This document shows positions 23,370 to 31,783 of a stretch of DNA of 64,000 bases, one piece after another (positions within the stretch are counted from its first letter, which is position 1; every line of letters starts with the position of its first letter). The DNA comes from Oceanospirillaceae bacterium (GTDB lineage Bacteria; Pseudomonadota; Gammaproteobacteria; Pseudomonadales; Balneatricaceae), in NCBI GenBank assembly GCA_018647765.1, contig JABGSN010000059.1, positions 1-64,000 on the forward strand, read 5' to 3'. Below the pieces are notes generated by a model that was given only the letters and a program-made list of their open reading frames with translations, was not told the DNA's origin and ran no database searches. The position numbers and the translations under genes are program-made.

Positions 23370-23636
23370 ATGTTGAACGAAACAGAATTAAAGCGGCAAG
23401 TGTGGCATAGCCGCCGCGGTATGTTAGAGCTGGATGTCTTGTTAGGCCCGTTTGCTACCGACGCACTGCCGCTGATAACAGCGGCACAACAGCAGGTGTA
23501 TGTGCGTTTGTTGAGTCAGCAAGACCCAGATTTATTTGCTTGGTTTATGGGTCACCAAGAGAGTGACGATAAAGAATTAGCGGCCATGGTGGCCATGGTG
23601 CAAGATTATGCTCAGTCGGGCCAAATTTTATCTTAA
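23370..23636 (+). CDS. sdhE: FAD assembly factor SdhE
   Basis: Promotes covalent attachment of FAD to succinate dehydrogenase and fumarate reductase. The 88 residues include the invariant RRGMLELD (residues 15-22), which contacts the flavoprotein, and DPDLFAWFMG. It heads the sdhE-ygfX pair, which overlap by 29 bases. Confidence 0.95.
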   Translation: MLNETELKRQVWHSRRGMLELDVLLGPFATDALPLITAAQQQVYVRLLSQQDPDLFAWFMGHQESDDKELAAMVAMVQDYAQSGQILS

Positions 23637-24054
23637 GCCGTCTGCCCAACTAACCCGTGTGGGCGTGTTGGTGTGGGGGCTTGTCAGTGCCTGTGCCTAT
23701 AGTATTGCCGGTGGGTCGTGGCTGAGCTTGAGTTACGCCTTGTTGGCCGCTTTTGTGGTGGGCTTGTGGCTGCGACGGTATGCCTGGCTTAAAGACCCCA
23801 CGAGTGTGGTGGCGGTGAGCTGGACGCCAGAAGAACTGTGTTGTTATTTGGCCAATGGCGAGCAAGTAAGCGGTACGATCCTGCCCAAGTCAGCCTTTAA
23901 TCCGCAGTTTATTACGTTACATCTCAGTACCATCGAGGGTGGTAAGTTTTGGTGGCCTTTGATGGCAGATAGTGGACCTGCCGACGGCTTACGTAAATTA
24001 CGCGTGTTTGGGCGTTGGCACCAGCAAGAGCCGCCTAGTTCCAGTCGAAGTTAG
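23608..24054 (+). CDS. ygfX: YgfX-type membrane protein (CptA-like)
   Basis: A 148-residue inner-membrane protein with two adjacent hydrophobic segments at residues about 16-54, then a soluble tail (PEELCCYLANGEQVSGTIL, WWPLMADS, LRKLRVFGRW). This layout and the position directly after sdhE match YgfX/CptA, reported in E. coli as a membrane toxin affecting cytoskeletal proteins and linked to SdhE. Sequence identity is low, so the call rests mainly on topology and neighbourhood. The ATG at 23608 lies inside sdhE. The end overlaps convergent nadB by 20 bases. Confidence 0.75.
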   Translation: MLSRAKFYLKPSAQLTRVGVLVWGLVSACAYSIAGGSWLSLSYALLAAFVVGLWLRRYAWLKDPTSVVAVSWTPEELCCYLANGEQVSGTILPKSAFNPQFITLHLSTIEGGKFWWPLMADSGPADGLRKLRVFGRWHQQEPPSSSRS

Positions 24055-25824: not shown

Positions 25825-26421
25825 GTGCCCAACCCCCTTCCACAACCTAAGACGGCCGAATCAGATCAACAATTGGTTGAGCGTGTGCAAGCAGGGGACA
25901 AGCGCGCCTTCGATTTATTGGTACTTAAATACCAACATAAAATAATTAGCTTGGTGGGGCGTTATGTTAACGACCACCACGAAGCTATGGACGTGAGTCA
26001 AGAAGCCTTCATTAAGGCGTATCGTGCATTAGCCAACTTCAGGGGCGACAGTCAGTTTTATACCTGGCTCTATCGCATTGCCATTAATACCGCCAAAAAT
26101 TATTTGGTTGCCCGCAAACGCAGGCCGCCAGACGTTGATGTAGAGGCCAATGAGCAAGGCGATTATGGCAGTGCTGATATTATGGCCGATGTTGAGACGC
26201 CAGAAAATCTTATGGCTCGCGATCAATTACAAGACAAGGTTTTTGCCACCTTAGAAAAACTACCCGATGACCTCAGGACTGCGCTCACACTGAGGGAATT
26301 TGAAGGTATGAGCTACGAACAAATTGCCGAAGTGATGGCTTGCCCTGTGGGCACAGTGCGCTCACGCATATTTAGAGCGCGCGATGCCATCGATAAAGAA
26401 GTGGCTAAACTCATGGCTTAG
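25825..26421 (+). CDS. rpoE: RNA polymerase sigma-E factor (RpoE/AlgU)
   Basis: ECF sigma factor for envelope stress. The start is GTG at 25825, with AAGGA placed 7 bases upstream. The 198 residues contain region 2 (FDLLVLKYQHKIISLVGRYV, VSQEAFIKAYRALANFRGDS, FYTWLYRIAINTAKNYLV) and region 4 (LPDDLRTALTLREFEGMSYE, CPVGTVRSRIFRARDAI), closely matching RpoE/AlgU of gammaproteobacteria. It heads rpoE-rseA-rseC-mucD. Confidence 0.97.
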   Translation: MPNPLPQPKTAESDQQLVERVQAGDKRAFDLLVLKYQHKIISLVGRYVNDHHEAMDVSQEAFIKAYRALANFRGDSQFYTWLYRIAINTAKNYLVARKRRPPDVDVEANEQGDYGSADIMADVETPENLMARDQLQDKVFATLEKLPDDLRTALTLREFEGMSYEQIAEVMACPVGTVRSRIFRARDAIDKEVAKLMA

Positions 26422-26534: not shown

Positions 26535-27386
26535 TTGCAACCAACACAAACCACAGCAGACTCAGTACGCGAATCATTATCGGCGCTTATGGATGACGCT
26601 GCACAGCCCCTGGAATTGCAACGGGTGTTAAAGGCCTGTCACGACGACAGTCAGGTGCGCGAGCAATGGGCGCGTTATCAGCTGGCTAGTGCGGCGTTAA
26701 AACGACAAGCCACGAGCACCAGTTCACCTTTGAGCTTGGCCGACAGTGTACGAACTGCACTGGAGTCTGAAGCCACCATACAGGTGTCTAAATCTACTTC
26801 TGTGGCGCACAAGTTAAATCAGTTGTGGCAACCCGTAGCGGGTTTGGCCGTGGCGGCTAGTGTCACTGTAGTGATGGTGATGGGTGCTCAACGTATGGGT
26901 GTCGCATCGCAACCCCATATCATTCCAGCCCAGCAAGGCGTGGTTTTGTTAGAACCTAGAAACAGCAATCGTGGTATAGAGTTGGCCAGTACAAATGCCG
27001 CTAACACCAGTGTATCTTCTGCCAATAGCAATCAAATTATTCGCTTGCCTGCGCCTACCCAAGCCGCCAATGCCGCCGACGGCCAATGGTTAGCCCAGTA
27101 TTCCCCTGCTGGCTTTGTGCTCACCCAACGTAGCTTGGATGAGGCTAATAATCCCCCGCGCGAAGTGTTGACTTATAGTGACGGTGACGCCAGTTTCACG
27201 CTTTATGTCGAAGCGCTTAATGGTCGTGATATTGCCGAAGGTCATGCTTATGCCGGTTCTAACTTAGTCTTAGGTCAGTCCTTGAGCAATAATGGCGATA
27301 CAGTATTTGTGACCCTTGTGGGGCAACTCAGTTTGGCGCAAGCTGAGCAAGTGGCTAACTCTGTGGTATCCTTAAAGGCTCAATAA
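26535..27386 (+). CDS. rseA: Sigma-E anti-sigma factor: RseA N-domain fused to an RseB C-terminal domain
   Basis: Residues 1 to about 55 match the cytoplasmic RseA/MucA domain that holds sigma-E (VRESLSALMDDAAQPLELQR, WARYQLASAALK). One membrane segment follows (about 98-118, GLAVAASVTVVMVMG). The last 100 residues do not look like RseA: SPAGFVLTQRSL, LTYSDGDASFTLYVE and VTLVGQLSLAQAEQVANSVV line up with the C-terminal domain of RseB/MucB (PxGF, YSDG, VGEL and the final helix). No separate rseB follows; rseC is next. The start is taken as TTG 26535, with TAGGAA upstream; a longer TTG-initiated frame from 26481 adds residues unlike the family. Confidence 0.85.
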   Translation: MQPTQTTADSVRESLSALMDDAAQPLELQRVLKACHDDSQVREQWARYQLASAALKRQATSTSSPLSLADSVRTALESEATIQVSKSTSVAHKLNQLWQPVAGLAVAASVTVVMVMGAQRMGVASQPHIIPAQQGVVLLEPRNSNRGIELASTNAANTSVSSANSNQIIRLPAPTQAANAADGQWLAQYSPAGFVLTQRSLDEANNPPREVLTYSDGDASFTLYVEALNGRDIAEGHAYAGSNLVLGQSLSNNGDTVFVTLVGQLSLAQAEQVANSVVSLKAQ

Positions 27387-27407: not shown

Positions 27408-27914
27408 ATGCACGACGCCGAATCCATGATCGAGCAGGTGGCACATGTCCACGCCATTAATCCAACCTCTGTCTGGTTAGACACTGTTCGCTTGAGCACG
27501 TGCAACTCCTGCAGTATGAAAAGTGGCTGTGGCCAACGGCTTATGAATCAGGCCACAAACTGTAAACGCTCCCGCATTCAATTACCCCTACCTACCCAGA
27601 TGTCACTTCAAGTGGGCGACGAAGTGGTCTTGGGCATCCCTCAAAAAGCCTTTATCAAGGCCAGTTTAATGACCTTTGCTATGCCTCTTGTGGTGATGTT
27701 AGCCACAGCCATTATGGCACAGGCCTTATCGGCTTCAGAACCCGTTATCGCGCTAACGGCACTGGTGGGGTTGGGGTTGGGGCTCGCCTTAGTGCGTTTG
27801 TATAGTCGCAGTTTAAGCGCTTCTAACAATACATCGGCAAGCAACCAATGGCAGCCCGTCATTTTGCGTCAGCAGCAGGTTGAGGGTGTACAGGCGCTGC
27901 GCTTTAGCGAGTAG
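27408..27914 (+). CDS. rseC: RseC/MucC family protein
   Basis: Inner-membrane protein of the sigma-E operon, related to the SoxR-reducing complex component RseC. The cysteine block CNSCSMKSGCGQ at residues about 31-42 plus a further Cys, the VGDEVVLGIPQKAFIKASL segment and two membrane segments (about 86-105 and 110-128) fit the family. Length 168 is normal. An ATG at 27426 is a possible alternative start. Confidence 0.92.
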   Translation: MHDAESMIEQVAHVHAINPTSVWLDTVRLSTCNSCSMKSGCGQRLMNQATNCKRSRIQLPLPTQMSLQVGDEVVLGIPQKAFIKASLMTFAMPLVVMLATAIMAQALSASEPVIALTALVGLGLGLALVRLYSRSLSASNNTSASNQWQPVILRQQQVEGVQALRFSE

Positions 27915-28015
27915 GCAATTGTGCAATATTGTGTAAAGGGCATCATTTATGGGCTCTGGTGGCCGCAATTCGTCGTATATTGAACCACGTCATTCATCTC
28001 CTAGAGGAATACGCT

Positions 28016-29449
28016 ATGCGTATAATACCTTTTTTCAAACGGCCATTAACTAACATCGTGTGGGCCACCTTATTGTTGTCGGCGGTATCCCCGCTCACTT
28101 TTGCAGCTGCGCTACCTGACTTTACTCATCTAGTGGAACAGGCCGCGCCAGCGGTAGTGAATATTAGTACCAGCCGTACTGTTGATCAACAAGCGGAAGT
28201 TAAGCAATTCAGTTTGCCTAATCAAGATCAGCTGCCCGATATTTTTAAGCATTTTTTTGAGCGCCAGTTCCCGCAGCAAAAGCCGCGTCAGCAAGGACCA
28301 AATCCCAAGCCGCAATCACTCGGCTCGGGTTTTATCATTAGCGCCGATGGCTACCTGTTAACCAATCATCATGTGATTGAAGATGCAGATAAAATCATTG
28401 TATCCCTTAGTGATCGTCGAGAAATGGAAGCTGAGTTGGTTGGTTCGGACCCGAGTTCTGATTTGGCGTTATTAAAAATAGACGCCGATCAGCTGCCCTA
28501 TTTAACCCTTGCCGATTCTGATCAACTGAAAGTGGGTGAGTGGGTATTAGCCATTGGTTCCCCCTTTGGTTTTGATCATTCGGTAACGGCCGGTATCGTT
28601 AGTGCTAAAGGCCGTAGCTTGCGTACTGAAACCTACGTGCCGTTTATTCAAACCGACGTGGCCATTAATCCAGGTAATTCTGGAGGTCCTCTTTTTAATC
28701 TCAATGGTGAGGTAGTGGGCATTAATTCGCAAATCTACACCCGTTCGGGCGGCTTTATGGGCCTTAGTTTTGCAATTCCAAGTAACACTGCAACCTCTGT
28801 GGTGGCTCAGTTACGCGACCATGGCGCGGTGTCCAGAGGTTGGTTAGGTGTGCAAATTCAAGAAGTCAGTCAAGATTTAGCGGAGTCCTTTGGTTTAGAT
28901 AAAGCTGCGGGGGCCTTAATTGCTCAAGTTATAGTGGGCAGCCCTGCTCTGGATGCCGGTTTGCAGGCCGGTGATGTGATCACCTCCGTCAACGGCAATG
29001 AAATAATACTATCGGCACAGGTTGCTCACTTTATCGGTGCCTTAGCGCCAGAAGAAATCGCGCGTATTGGTTTGGTTAGGGGGGGTGAAAAAATTCACAT
29101 CGAGGTGGTGATCGGCACCTTGCCCGATCAAATTGCGGCTGCCCTTGGCGCACTCGAACAAGGCCAAAACCTTGCGCGGATTGGCCTGCGGGTGGCAAGC
29201 TTGCCGGCTGAAAAAGCTAAAGCGTGGCGCATAGGTCATGGTGTGGAAATCATCGAAGTCGACCAAGGTGTAGCTCAAGAACTTGGCTTACAGGCTGGAG
29301 ATGTGATCACCAATATTGCCAATCAGCGTATAGAAAGCGTAGAACAGATTGTTGGTTTAGTAGCGCAGTTGCCGCCTCGTCGCTCTATCTCGTTACGTAT
29401 TGTGCGCCAAGGTAGGCCGCTGTATGTGGCGTTTAGGTTGAATCAATAA
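28016..29449 (+). CDS. mucD: Periplasmic serine protease/chaperone DegP (MucD)
   Basis: Degrades and refolds damaged periplasmic proteins. The chosen ATG at 28016 has GAGGAA 7 bases upstream and opens a clear signal peptide (positive MRIIPFFKRP, hydrophobic core, cleavage probably after LTFA). A longer frame from 27929 lacks this logic. The catalytic triad is visible: His in TNHHVIEDAD, Asp in SDLALLKID, Ser in NPGNSGGPLF. Two PDZ domains follow (GWLGVQIQEV... and the region to the end), so this is the DegP/MucD type, not the single-PDZ DegS. Length 477 matches MucD. Confidence 0.96.
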   Translation: MRIIPFFKRPLTNIVWATLLLSAVSPLTFAAALPDFTHLVEQAAPAVVNISTSRTVDQQAEVKQFSLPNQDQLPDIFKHFFERQFPQQKPRQQGPNPKPQSLGSGFIISADGYLLTNHHVIEDADKIIVSLSDRREMEAELVGSDPSSDLALLKIDADQLPYLTLADSDQLKVGEWVLAIGSPFGFDHSVTAGIVSAKGRSLRTETYVPFIQTDVAINPGNSGGPLFNLNGEVVGINSQIYTRSGGFMGLSFAIPSNTATSVVAQLRDHGAVSRGWLGVQIQEVSQDLAESFGLDKAAGALIAQVIVGSPALDAGLQAGDVITSVNGNEIILSAQVAHFIGALAPEEIARIGLVRGGEKIHIEVVIGTLPDQIAAALGALEQGQNLARIGLRVASLPAEKAKAWRIGHGVEIIEVDQGVAQELGLQAGDVITNIANQRIESVEQIVGLVAQLPPRRSISLRIVRQGRPLYVAFRLNQ

Positions 29450-29531: not shown

Positions 29532-30725
29532 ATGGCCGATCACACACACGAGCAAGATCCTAATGCTCAGGCAGACGCTTGGCAGCAAATTAAGTTTACC
29601 GGCAGCGGGTTAGAATTTTTTAAAATTTGGATTGTAAACCTGTTGCTGACGCTGGTGACGCTGGGCATCTATTCGGCCTGGGCCACGGTGCGAACGCGTC
29701 GCTATTTTTATGGTAATACCCATGTGGCGGGCAGCCGGTTCGATTTTCATGGCACTGGCTTGCAGATTCTGGTGGGCCGGGTGATTGCGCTGGTATTGCT
29801 GTTAGGTTGGTCCCAGGGCCACTTTATCCACCCTTATCTACCTATAGTCTGCATTGCTATTGTAATTGGCTTGTTTCCTTGGTTTATGGTGCGCGCCTTG
29901 CGCTTTCGCATGAGGAATACCAGCCTGCATAACCTACGGTTTGATTTTTTAGGTACGTCACTTTATGCGTACAAGCTACTGGGCGGATATTGGGCTGTGT
30001 TGCTAGCTTTATCTATAGGCTCGGTTTTGTTTTTCAGCGATTTTATCAATAATCCGGGTGAGCAGCCTGAAGTTGCCGATTTCACGGGATTTTTTCTGTT
30101 TATGTTTTTATCGATGGTGATCTATGTGCTGATTTATCCGGCATTTGTATGTGATAGCCGTAAATTCTACATTAATCACGCAGCCTTTGGTGATCATCGA
30201 TTTAGCGCTCAATTGGCGCGGCGTGGCTTTATTGGTGCATTCTTTCGTGCATTATTGATGTTTGTGTTTTTCATGGTGATCGCAGCTGTGGTAGGTGGCG
30301 TCATCGCATTTAGTTCTCAAATCCACCCTTTTTTTGATGCCGGAACCCCCAGTACTGTTACGGTTTTTGTGGGTGTCATCGTAGTGTATGGTCTTTTTGG
30401 CCTAACCAGTATAGTACCTGCGGCTTATTGGCAAGTGTTTGTTTTTAATGCCACCTTTTGTTATTTGCAGCTAGGTGAAAACGTCAAGTTTAAAGCCATG
30501 CTAGCAACCAAGCCTTTTGCTTGGTTGCTTATTAGCAATTTACTTATGGTGTTGTTTAGTTTGGGGTTAGCTTATCCGTGGGCTGCAATTCGCTTGGCCA
30601 AATACAAACTCGAAGCCATTAGGTGTCAAGGTGGATTTGACTCCTTTGAGGGTGCGTCTACGGCCGATAGAAATGCCTTGGGCGAGGAAGTAGGTTCGGC
30701 CTTTGATGTTGAGTTTGGTTTTTAA
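29532..30725 (+). CDS. YjgN/DUF898 family multi-span membrane protein
   Basis: A 397-residue inner-membrane protein. The repeated family unit is seen twice: FKIWIVNLLLTLVTLGIYSAWATVRTRRYFYGNT near the N-terminus (here summarised by its IYSAWA core) and LISNLLMVLFSLGLAYPWAAIRLAKY near the C-terminus, with about six further hydrophobic segments between. AAGGAG lies 8 bases before the ATG. The function of the family is unknown. It is 2 bases from the M48 protease gene, a pairing also seen elsewhere for this family, so the two may act together at the membrane. Confidence 0.85.
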   Translation: MADHTHEQDPNAQADAWQQIKFTGSGLEFFKIWIVNLLLTLVTLGIYSAWATVRTRRYFYGNTHVAGSRFDFHGTGLQILVGRVIALVLLLGWSQGHFIHPYLPIVCIAIVIGLFPWFMVRALRFRMRNTSLHNLRFDFLGTSLYAYKLLGGYWAVLLALSIGSVLFFSDFINNPGEQPEVADFTGFFLFMFLSMVIYVLIYPAFVCDSRKFYINHAAFGDHRFSAQLARRGFIGAFFRALLMFVFFMVIAAVVGGVIAFSSQIHPFFDAGTPSTVTVFVGVIVVYGLFGLTSIVPAAYWQVFVFNATFCYLQLGENVKFKAMLATKPFAWLLISNLLMVLFSLGLAYPWAAIRLAKYKLEAIRCQGGFDSFEGASTADRNALGEEVGSAFDVEFGF

Positions 30726-30727
30726 TA

Positions 30728-31783
30728 ATGCCTCTCAACGAGCATCAAACGCAGCCCCTTGCCGGTACTTTTTATTTTAATGGTAAGGCAAAATCGCACC
30801 GTGCATGGTTGGTAAAAAACGGCGATCGGCTAACTATTAAGCTCGATGCTGAAGCAGAGGTGCTGGGCTGCCGTGCTCACGAGGTGAAAGTCTCAGAAGC
30901 GCTGGCAAATTTGCCAAGCCGGCTGGTTTTTAATACAGGGGATGCGTTTGAGTGTGCTGATACAGCTGCGTTTGCGCTGTTGTTTAACCAGCATAGGTCG
31001 GGCGTGGCCAATGCTGTACACAAGCTAGAGAGAAGTACTAAGTGGGCGTTATTAGCCTTGGTTTTGATGCCGTTACTCGCCTATGGTGCGTTAACTTGGT
31101 TGATGCCAATGGCCGCAGTAAGCGTGGCAGAGGCCATACCGTCGGCGTTGGTAAAGCAGTTGGATCAACAAGTGTTAGCAAGTATGGATGGCTACGTATT
31201 TGCCCCTACCAAAGCAACCGTGGCTCAGCAACAAAAGTTACAGCATGTGTGGGCGAAATTGCCCCATGGATTAGGCTATACCTTGCTTAGTAAAGACGGT
31301 GGCGTTATCGGTGCCAATGCAATGGCTTTGCCTGGAGGCAGTATTATCGTCACTGACGCCTTATTGGCATTGCTAAGTGAAGATGAATTACTGGCCGTAT
31401 TGGCCCACGAAATGGGTCATGTAGACCTGCAACACGGCCTACGTAATATTGTTCAATCCCTGGGTGTGACGTTGGTTTTTTCCACCATCATAGGTGACGT
31501 GAGCCTATTGGCTGAGTCTGCCTTGGTAGCAGCACCCGTGATAATTCAGCAAATGTCATACAGCCGTGATATGGAGCGTGAAGCCGACGAGTTTGCCCAC
31601 CGAAAACTAACGCAAATGGGTATATCCCCCGCGTGTTTGGGGTCTGCCCTAAAACGCCTTATGGACTCTCACAAACAAACTGGTGATGCCAATCATGCAT
31701 GGCAAAGCTATCTATCAACTCATCCTAGTATCAGTGAGCGTGTTGCATCAGCACAAGGTGTCAGCTGTGGTGCGAGCAGATAG
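30728..31783 (+). CDS. M48 family zinc metalloprotease, membrane anchored
   Basis: A 351-residue protein. The N-terminal 95 residues form a soluble domain with no signal peptide; one membrane segment follows (about residues 103-123, WALLALVLMPLLAYGALTW), then the peptidase domain with NAMALPGGSIIVTDALLAL, the zinc site LAHEMGHVDLQHG (HExxH) and the third ligand region YSRDMEREADEFAHRKL. This resembles HtpX/Oma1-type and BepA-type peptidases, but the N-terminal domain is different. It probably cleaves membrane or periplasmic substrates and is likely cotranscribed with the YjgN-like gene. Confidence 0.88.
   Translation: MPLNEHQTQPLAGTFYFNGKAKSHRAWLVKNGDRLTIKLDAEAEVLGCRAHEVKVSEALANLPSRLVFNTGDAFECADTAAFALLFNQHRSGVANAVHKLERSTKWALLALVLMPLLAYGALTWLMPMAAVSVAEAIPSALVKQLDQQVLASMDGYVFAPTKATVAQQQKLQHVWAKLPHGLGYTLLSKDGGVIGANAMALPGGSIIVTDALLALLSEDELLAVLAHEMGHVDLQHGLRNIVQSLGVTLVFSTIIGDVSLLAESALVAAPVIIQQMSYSRDMEREADEFAHRKLTQMGISPACLGSALKRLMDSHKQTGDANHAWQSYLSTHPSISERVASAQGVSCGASR

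Follow-up and report, generated by a model that had tools for sequence, protein, structure and literature searches.

An anti-sigma-E factor that carries the C-terminal domain of RseB in the same polypeptide, fixed across a bacterial family

The textbook sigma-E pathway responds to two signals, protein damage read via DegS/AlgW and lipid damage via RseB/MucB, and RseA/MucA, RseB/MucB and the complex they form have been well studied. The stretch of DNA analysed here (the window, 64,000 nucleotides) raises the question of what becomes of these two inputs when the two proteins are one. The gene directly 3' of its rpoE/algU, the position typical of RseA/MucA anti-sigma-E factors, encodes a protein in which the RseB C-domain forms the C-terminus of the anti-sigma factor and is not part of a separate secreted periplasmic protein (Table 1). 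A sequence-only reading of the window had proposed such a fusion, with no separate rseB, and had suggested that it builds in the shield of RseA while changing the signal input.

Table 1. Features of the sigma-E locus, in positions of the window
Feature	Position	Strand	Residues	Basis or remark
rpoE/algU, sigma factor 5' of the fusion	25825..26421	+		TIGR02939, 299.2 bits, over cut-off
rseA::rseB(C-domain), fused anti-sigma factor gene	26535..27386	+	283 aa	TTG start
RseA_N, cytoplasmic sigma-E-binding domain	26568..26798	+	12-88	PF03872, 45.8 bits (cut-off 24)
Putative single membrane segment	26832..26894	+	~100-120	hydrophobic stretch, sequence reading alone
Periplasmic linker	26895..27086	+	~121-184	RseA alpha-I motif missing
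IIRL strand-like motif	27036..27047	+	168-171	conserved in aligned fused proteins
MucB_RseB_C, RseB C-terminal domain	27075..27365	+	181-277	PF17188, 40.2 bits (cut-off 30.1)
rseC/mucC	27408..27914	+		PF04246, 102.8 bits, over cut-off
mucD-like Do-family protease	27929..29449	+		TIGR02037, 501.6 bits (cut-off 416.2)

The coordinates of the fused reading frame were confirmed, with its stop codon at 27386, and the PF17188 match bears out the assignment of the C-terminal ~100 residues to the RseB/MucB C-terminal domain. The RseA-type N-terminus proposed along with it also stands on its RseA_N score, but its extent does not: it covers residues 12-88, together with an RseA-type membrane segment, rather than residues 1-55. 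The remaining Pfam match of the protein, to Alpha-E, lies under its cut-off at 13.6 bits. In phmmer searches of the PDB, the N-terminal part is matched by structures of the MucA N-domain (8z6g, 2.1e-12; 6in7, 2.2e-12) and the C-terminal part by structures of the MucB C-domain (6in9, 2.6e-10; 6in8 and 6jau, 2.7e-10), with residues 170-277 aligning on MucB 178-287 of 6in9. In the hydrophobic membrane stretch A107, A108, S109 and G117 are invariant across 55 aligned fused proteins of the family. It is confirmed, then, that an anti-sigma factor and an RseB C-domain are joined here in one polypeptide.

That the periplasmic region of an ordinary RseA has been misread as RseB_C was ruled out with comparison profiles made from 68 canonical RseA and 68 canonical RseB, all from loci with separate ORFs (duplicates and locus L087 excluded), which were scored on the portion of each fused protein C-terminal to the membrane segment. 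For the window protein the RseB-CTD profile gives 53.1 bits, the RseA-periplasm profile 1.5 and the RseB-NTD profile -2.1; this is the comparison on which the sequence-only reading had staked itself, and it came out in favour of RseB_C. Across the 55 fused proteins the respective values are 21.5-74.6 bits, up to 15.9 and up to 2.3.

A frameshift or an assembly artefact was also ruled out, because the fusion recurs in one ORF throughout the family: by comparison of contig, strand and open frame, RseA_N and PF17188 lie together in 95 of 99 family genomes, spread over 16 genera. At E<=1, 97 of the 99 have a PF17188 match, which is over cut-off in 96; RseA_N is present in 98. Genome G256 has a fused ORF by alignment and no PF17188 match at E<=1; G281, of the same genus as the window, has the gene broken into two frames (L087, contig 86, 101-1365), which is either a sequencing error or a true frameshift; in G275 the domains lie on two contig ends, and in G267 neither domain was found. 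The alignment used here comprises 55 distinct fused proteins of the family, of which all match RseA_N and 54 match PF17188 at E<=0.01; it omits exact or same-genome duplicates (L002, L033, L071, L072, L075, L077 and L078), the 410-aa frame of G264 (L040/L103), and L087, L100 and L073/L104, which lack a single long pairwise match. Neither the fixation of the fusion in a whole family nor its recurrence in other lineages (see below) formed part of the sequence-only reading, and nor did the loss of the docking motif alpha-I in the window's own genus, described further on.

A separate RseB is missing from the genome of the window, an assembly of 2.49 Mb in 68 contigs that is listed as 100% complete. 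A search of the whole genome with PF17188, even at E<=10, returned the fusion itself as its sole match, so that the full rseB whose discovery elsewhere would have told against the earlier proposal was not found. Pfam gives no match in the fused protein to PF03888, the LolA-like lipid-binding N-domain of MucB_RseB, and genome-wide at E<=0.001 this profile has a single partial match, to positions 98-164 of a 294-aa protein on contig C19. This protein scores 152.2 bits with the LolA_like family PF17131 versus 31.8 with PF03888. Its gene (G000, L001 1312-2193) sits, by sequence reading, between genes for an RND/MMPL exporter-like membrane protein and a likely outer-membrane protein, and it is not accepted as an RseB. 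With one PF17188 match and the C19 protein being LolA_like, a full rseB or a free RseB N-domain elsewhere in the genome is ruled out, and the absence of the RseB N-domain, earlier suspected at the locus, extends to the genome as a whole. Independently of this, the C19 protein triggers the RseB N-domain profile, and automatic rseB searches could be misled by it.

The gene immediately 3' of the fusion had been called rseC, which its RseC_MucC match upholds, and the order rpoE-fusion-rseC-mucD, on one strand, is found in all 23 family loci counted from 27 wide loci obtained (L087 was omitted for its broken frame, L104 for a contig end, and L100 and L103 as lying outside the aligned set). The real start of the mucD-like gene is probably downstream of 27929. 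Farther out, two genes lie 3' of mucD (29532-31783), the first for a DUF898 membrane protein (290.9 bits) and the second for an M48 peptidase that carries a DUF7092 domain, while 23370-24054 encodes SdhE (Sdh5, 84.3 bits) and then a protein slightly below the Cpta_toxin cut-off (26.4 versus 27.3 bits), a pair that adjoins nadB (named by sequence).

The joined domain is under strong constraint. Ratios of dN/dS were computed by the Nei-Gojobori method for 13 chosen pairs, three sequences being used twice. In all 12 pairs computable for both regions, dN/dS is lower in the CTD than in residues 1-95; for the window protein against L085 the values are 0.040 and 0.083, and the figure for residues 1-95 is raised by the inclusion of the variable stretch before the membrane. 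The linker falls below the CTD in 3 of 11 computable pairs. Over the 55 rows, mean identity is highest in the membrane segment (0.566), followed by the CTD (0.452), the region from the I-R-L motif to alpha-I (0.424), the cytoplasmic part (0.368) and the linker before I-R-L, the lowest of the five regions (0.217). The CTD looks like a working part rather than a relic. In the window's genus (L079-L088; 27075-27365 of the window), two loops of the CTD are each about 4 residues longer than in most genera of the family.

What this domain might do in its new position depends on the junction with RseA. In PMC7400510, helix alpha-I (MucA 157-177) is described as the primary contact of MucA and binds the MucB CTD; the substitutions W158A, R162A and H170A of MucA each abolish the MucA-MucB pull-down, alpha-I of RseA suffices on its own for binding RseB, and MucA 145-158, ahead of alpha-I, pairs with strand betaO of MucB. 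The touching of RseA by the RseB C-domain, which the sequence-only reading had brought in from E. coli, is therefore documented. We scored alpha-I as the motif [YF][ILMVA]..H, the counts being of related rows that are not independent. Among 68 canonical RseA, 61 have it within their last 80 residues (shuffle mean 2.4, maximum 9), and 40 of the 55 fused linkers contain it (shuffle mean 1.2, maximum 4); where it is kept in the family it always lies 10-11 residues N-terminal of the CTD. This RseB-docking helix is absent from the window protein, from its genus (10 of 10 aligned), from L091 and from four sequences of genus g98, a genus in which L089 and L090 retain a near-match; the best-known contact of the CTD is therefore missing in the window protein. 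The position equivalent to MucA R162, four residues before the first residue of the motif by the published spacing (R162, Y166, H170), is R in 52 of 61 canonical RseA, versus G in 36 and R in none of the 40 motif-bearing fused proteins. The H of alpha-I is kept in the fused proteins, but the motif definition itself requires it. Given the loss of alpha-I in the genus and the altered R162 position, docking exactly like that of MucA/MucB or RseA/RseB is not a safe assumption.

More constant than alpha-I is the I-R-L motif just before it, which 52 of the 55 fused linkers contain (shuffle mean 2.4, maximum 6), with I169 and R170 occupying at least 90% of alignment rows. The mapped AlgW site of MucA, VLAG (PMC8545111), occurs in 0 of the 55 fused proteins. 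Against canonical RseA, the fused-protein profile passes the motif (model positions 172-177) to reach at least 178 in only 25 of 70 matches (L087 included), so that in most aligned proteins RseA sequence stops immediately after alpha-I and is followed by the RseB CTD. On the RseB side, PMC7400510 places the end of the NTD of P. aeruginosa MucB at residue 210 and the start of its CTD at 211, and PMC8545111 has AlgW cutting MucB within TVAW 211-214; the fusion accordingly begins at a known hinge. One in-frame deletion across adjacent rseA and rseB genes would, we infer, yield such a protein.

The distribution of the fusion was followed beyond the family with the fused-protein profile. Among 390 genomes of the order, drawn from 142 genera, full-length matches (at least 253 bits) occur in 18, which are exactly the 18 family members drawn, and the next match, at 141.6 bits, covers the RseA part only. 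The proteins scoring highest outside the family, up to this value, are the RseA of family f29 in the same order (L015, L169-L174), in which RseA is separate and RseB has its own, longer ORF; three of these canonical sequences have an I-R-L/F motif just before alpha-I, like the fused family. As a separate observation, four genomes of f44 in the same order (G044, G081, G110 and G137) match the profile in RseA and have no PF17188 at E<=0.001, apparently a third state, RseA without the RseB C-domain, beside the separate and the fused ones. In 369 genomes of the class, one family member included, there are matches in 232 genomes, and the window's genome is the sole full-length one among the matches listed; the follow-up of ORFs covered 29 returned loci among those matches, and eight further regions were inspected for odd frame length or coverage, so that the count of fusions outside the family is a lower bound. 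Among viral contigs, 306 stretches matched a pattern and no relative was among them.

Fusions were nevertheless found in two families that lie outside the window's order by kinship labels. In f148 the fusion is present in 5 of 6 genomes (L190-L194), with both domains over cut-off in the single one scanned with Pfam (G386). These proteins have the same RseA_N, membrane segment, linker and MucB_RseB_C in one ORF, but differ in having 31-36 residues from the alpha-I motif to the CTD, versus 10-11 in the window's family. In f163, G516 (L181/L199) is fused with the same domain layout (RseA_N, 64.6 bits), but differs in a missing alpha-I motif and a borderline PF17188 match (27.9 or 29.4 bits; 31.2 with its neighbours); the other f163 genome, G401 (L198), has separate rseA and rseB. 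No second PF17188 match over cut-off was found in the f148 and f163 genomes. The different families and the different spacing of alpha-I and CTD point to more than one fusion event, and multiple origins are likely. In a tree that combines 24 of the 55 family rows with the 5 f148 rows, G516 and 69 rows labelled canonical (including the broken L087), the three sets of fusions lie apart. AU tests without L087 rejected none of the single-clade arrangements: the window's family (f1) with f148 (p 0.417), f1 with G516 (p 0.284), f148 with G516 (p 0.67, with the constrained tree ahead by 9 log units) or f1 alone (p 0.821, with the constrained tree ahead by 18), and the free quick tree failed to recover f1 as one clade. 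These tests decide nothing on the number of origins.

The proteins needed for classical two-step proteolysis are present, since both an AlgW-like protease and RseP were found in the genome. The site-1-type protease on contig C21 scores 276.8 bits with TIGR02038, below the cut-off of 422.95, as do the matches in all 13 searched genomes of the window's genus; among PDB structures it is closest to AlgW (259 bits), followed by DegP-like (199) and DegS (184). RseP, on contig C55, is over its cut-off at 345.2 bits.

Starting from the observed architecture, the missing N-domain and separate RseB, these two proteases, the gene order and the pattern of conservation and selection, we tentatively favour, at somewhat short of an even chance, a self-capped anti-sigma factor that is cut by the AlgW-like and RseP proteases and works without the lipid input of RseB. 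The cytoplasmic RseA_N would hold RpoE while the single helix anchors the protein, and the periplasmic linker and RseB C-domain would make up a folded head that is never released and caps in cis: it would restrain the site-1 segment of the linker, doing the job of a separate RseB, and preserve the bulk that shuts out RseP. Outer-membrane protein C-termini would switch on the AlgW/DegS-like protease of C21, which would cut between membrane and cap, whereupon RseP would complete proteolysis and RpoE be freed. With the LolA-like lipid-binding N-domain gone, lipid-driven release of RseB presumably cannot be an input. The built-in shield and different signal input of the sequence-only reading fit the evidence so construed. 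The retention of the alpha-I motif beside the CTD in 40 of 55 aligned proteins and the tighter constraint on the CTD than on the sigma-binding domain speak for such a cap, whereas the loss of alpha-I in the window's own genus and the change at the R162 position in relatives are the main objections. In addition, in PMC7400510 the MucB cavity that receives MucA is made by both domains and the cleavage region of RseA is described as buried in a hydrophobic pocket of RseB, so that the CTD alone may shield poorly. The absence of VLAG from all 55 fused proteins and the 3 pairs in which dN/dS is lower in the linker than in the CTD also weigh against the cap.

In a competing reading, which we regard as unlikely, the CTD is simply a compact body that blocks RseP before site-1 cleavage, with no shielding of site 1 and AlgW alone setting the rate. 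The review PMC10202637 relates a suggestion that the PDZ domain of RseP acts as a size filter excluding bulky, uncut substrates, which speaks for this plug as it does for the self-capped head; the poor conservation of the linker before IIRL, the loss of alpha-I in the genus and a changed R162 position in 40 of 40 motif-keeping relatives speak for the plug as well. Yet a mere plug would have no need of particular residues of its own, whereas the CTD is the more constrained part in every computable pair, nor would it need the alpha-I motif that most aligned proteins keep next to it. The same constraint could reflect a new sensor head: freed of its N-domain, the C-domain would have come to control cleavage by binding another signal, either a misfolded periplasmic protein or a ligand; the remodelling of the CTD within the family, where the two loops kept in the window's genus are about 4 residues shorter in most genera, would also suit this. 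We consider it improbable: no pocket or ligand family emerged, and two structure predictions, each from a two-row alignment of the window protein with its 94% identical orthologue L033 (from a MAG labelled Oceanospirillaceae, JAPYOS010000002.1), gave uninformative models with a pLDDT of 33.5 and 36.3.

Least probable is that a separate LolA-fold protein acts in trans as the lipid-sensing half and so keeps the input. The LolA_like protein of C19, with its partial RseB-N match, is present to fill this role, and 9 of the 11 genomes in the window's genus have a PF03888 match at E<=0.01; but the candidate is a PF17131 protein encoded away from the sigma-E genes, and outside the genus such matches are found in only 7 of 88 family genomes. 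All 16 matches among the 99 family genomes are partial or weak (17.0-32.1 bits).

Returning to the self-capped anti-sigma factor, the C-half of RseB is joined to the anti-sigma factor, with no lipid-binding half attached, in nearly all sampled genomes of the family and in two or more additional lineages, and a fused brake of this kind suggests fewer envelope-damage inputs than in E. coli. If such a factor works as proposed, it would reveal which half of RseB is indispensable, offer a single-chain construct for the study of site-1 shielding and predict organisms whose envelope-stress response ignores lipid signals. A wider proposition, to which we give a little less credence still, is that the dual-input sigma-E brake, built of two proteins, has been reduced on more than one occasion to one protein with only that half of RseB which contacts RseA, that such lineages respond to envelope stress without lipid sensing, by way of a cap in cis, and that the docking helix is dispensable in the window's genus. 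If this is true, it would provide a natural experiment that splits the shielding by RseB from its lipid sensing. In the open PMC literature, as far as the listed titles and abstract openings go and with most subscription papers beyond its scope, none describes an RseA-RseB_C fusion, and the available portions of PMC7400510, PMC8545111, PMC10202637, PMC7406223 and PMC8103513 make no mention of one.

Set beside MucA-MucB of P. aeruginosa and RseA-RseB of E. coli, the fused protein shares RseA_N and the RseB/MucB C-domain, with a putative single membrane segment, and its locus and genome share the order rpoE, anti-sigma factor, rseC and mucD and the AlgW-like and RseP proteases. The gene order of the MucA-MucB system is algU-mucABCD. 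The fusion differs from both systems in being one polypeptide instead of two, without a LolA-like N-domain or a separate secreted protein, and in passing from the alpha-I region directly to the CTD without the C-terminal tail of RseA; the window's genus departs further from them in having dispensed with alpha-I as well.
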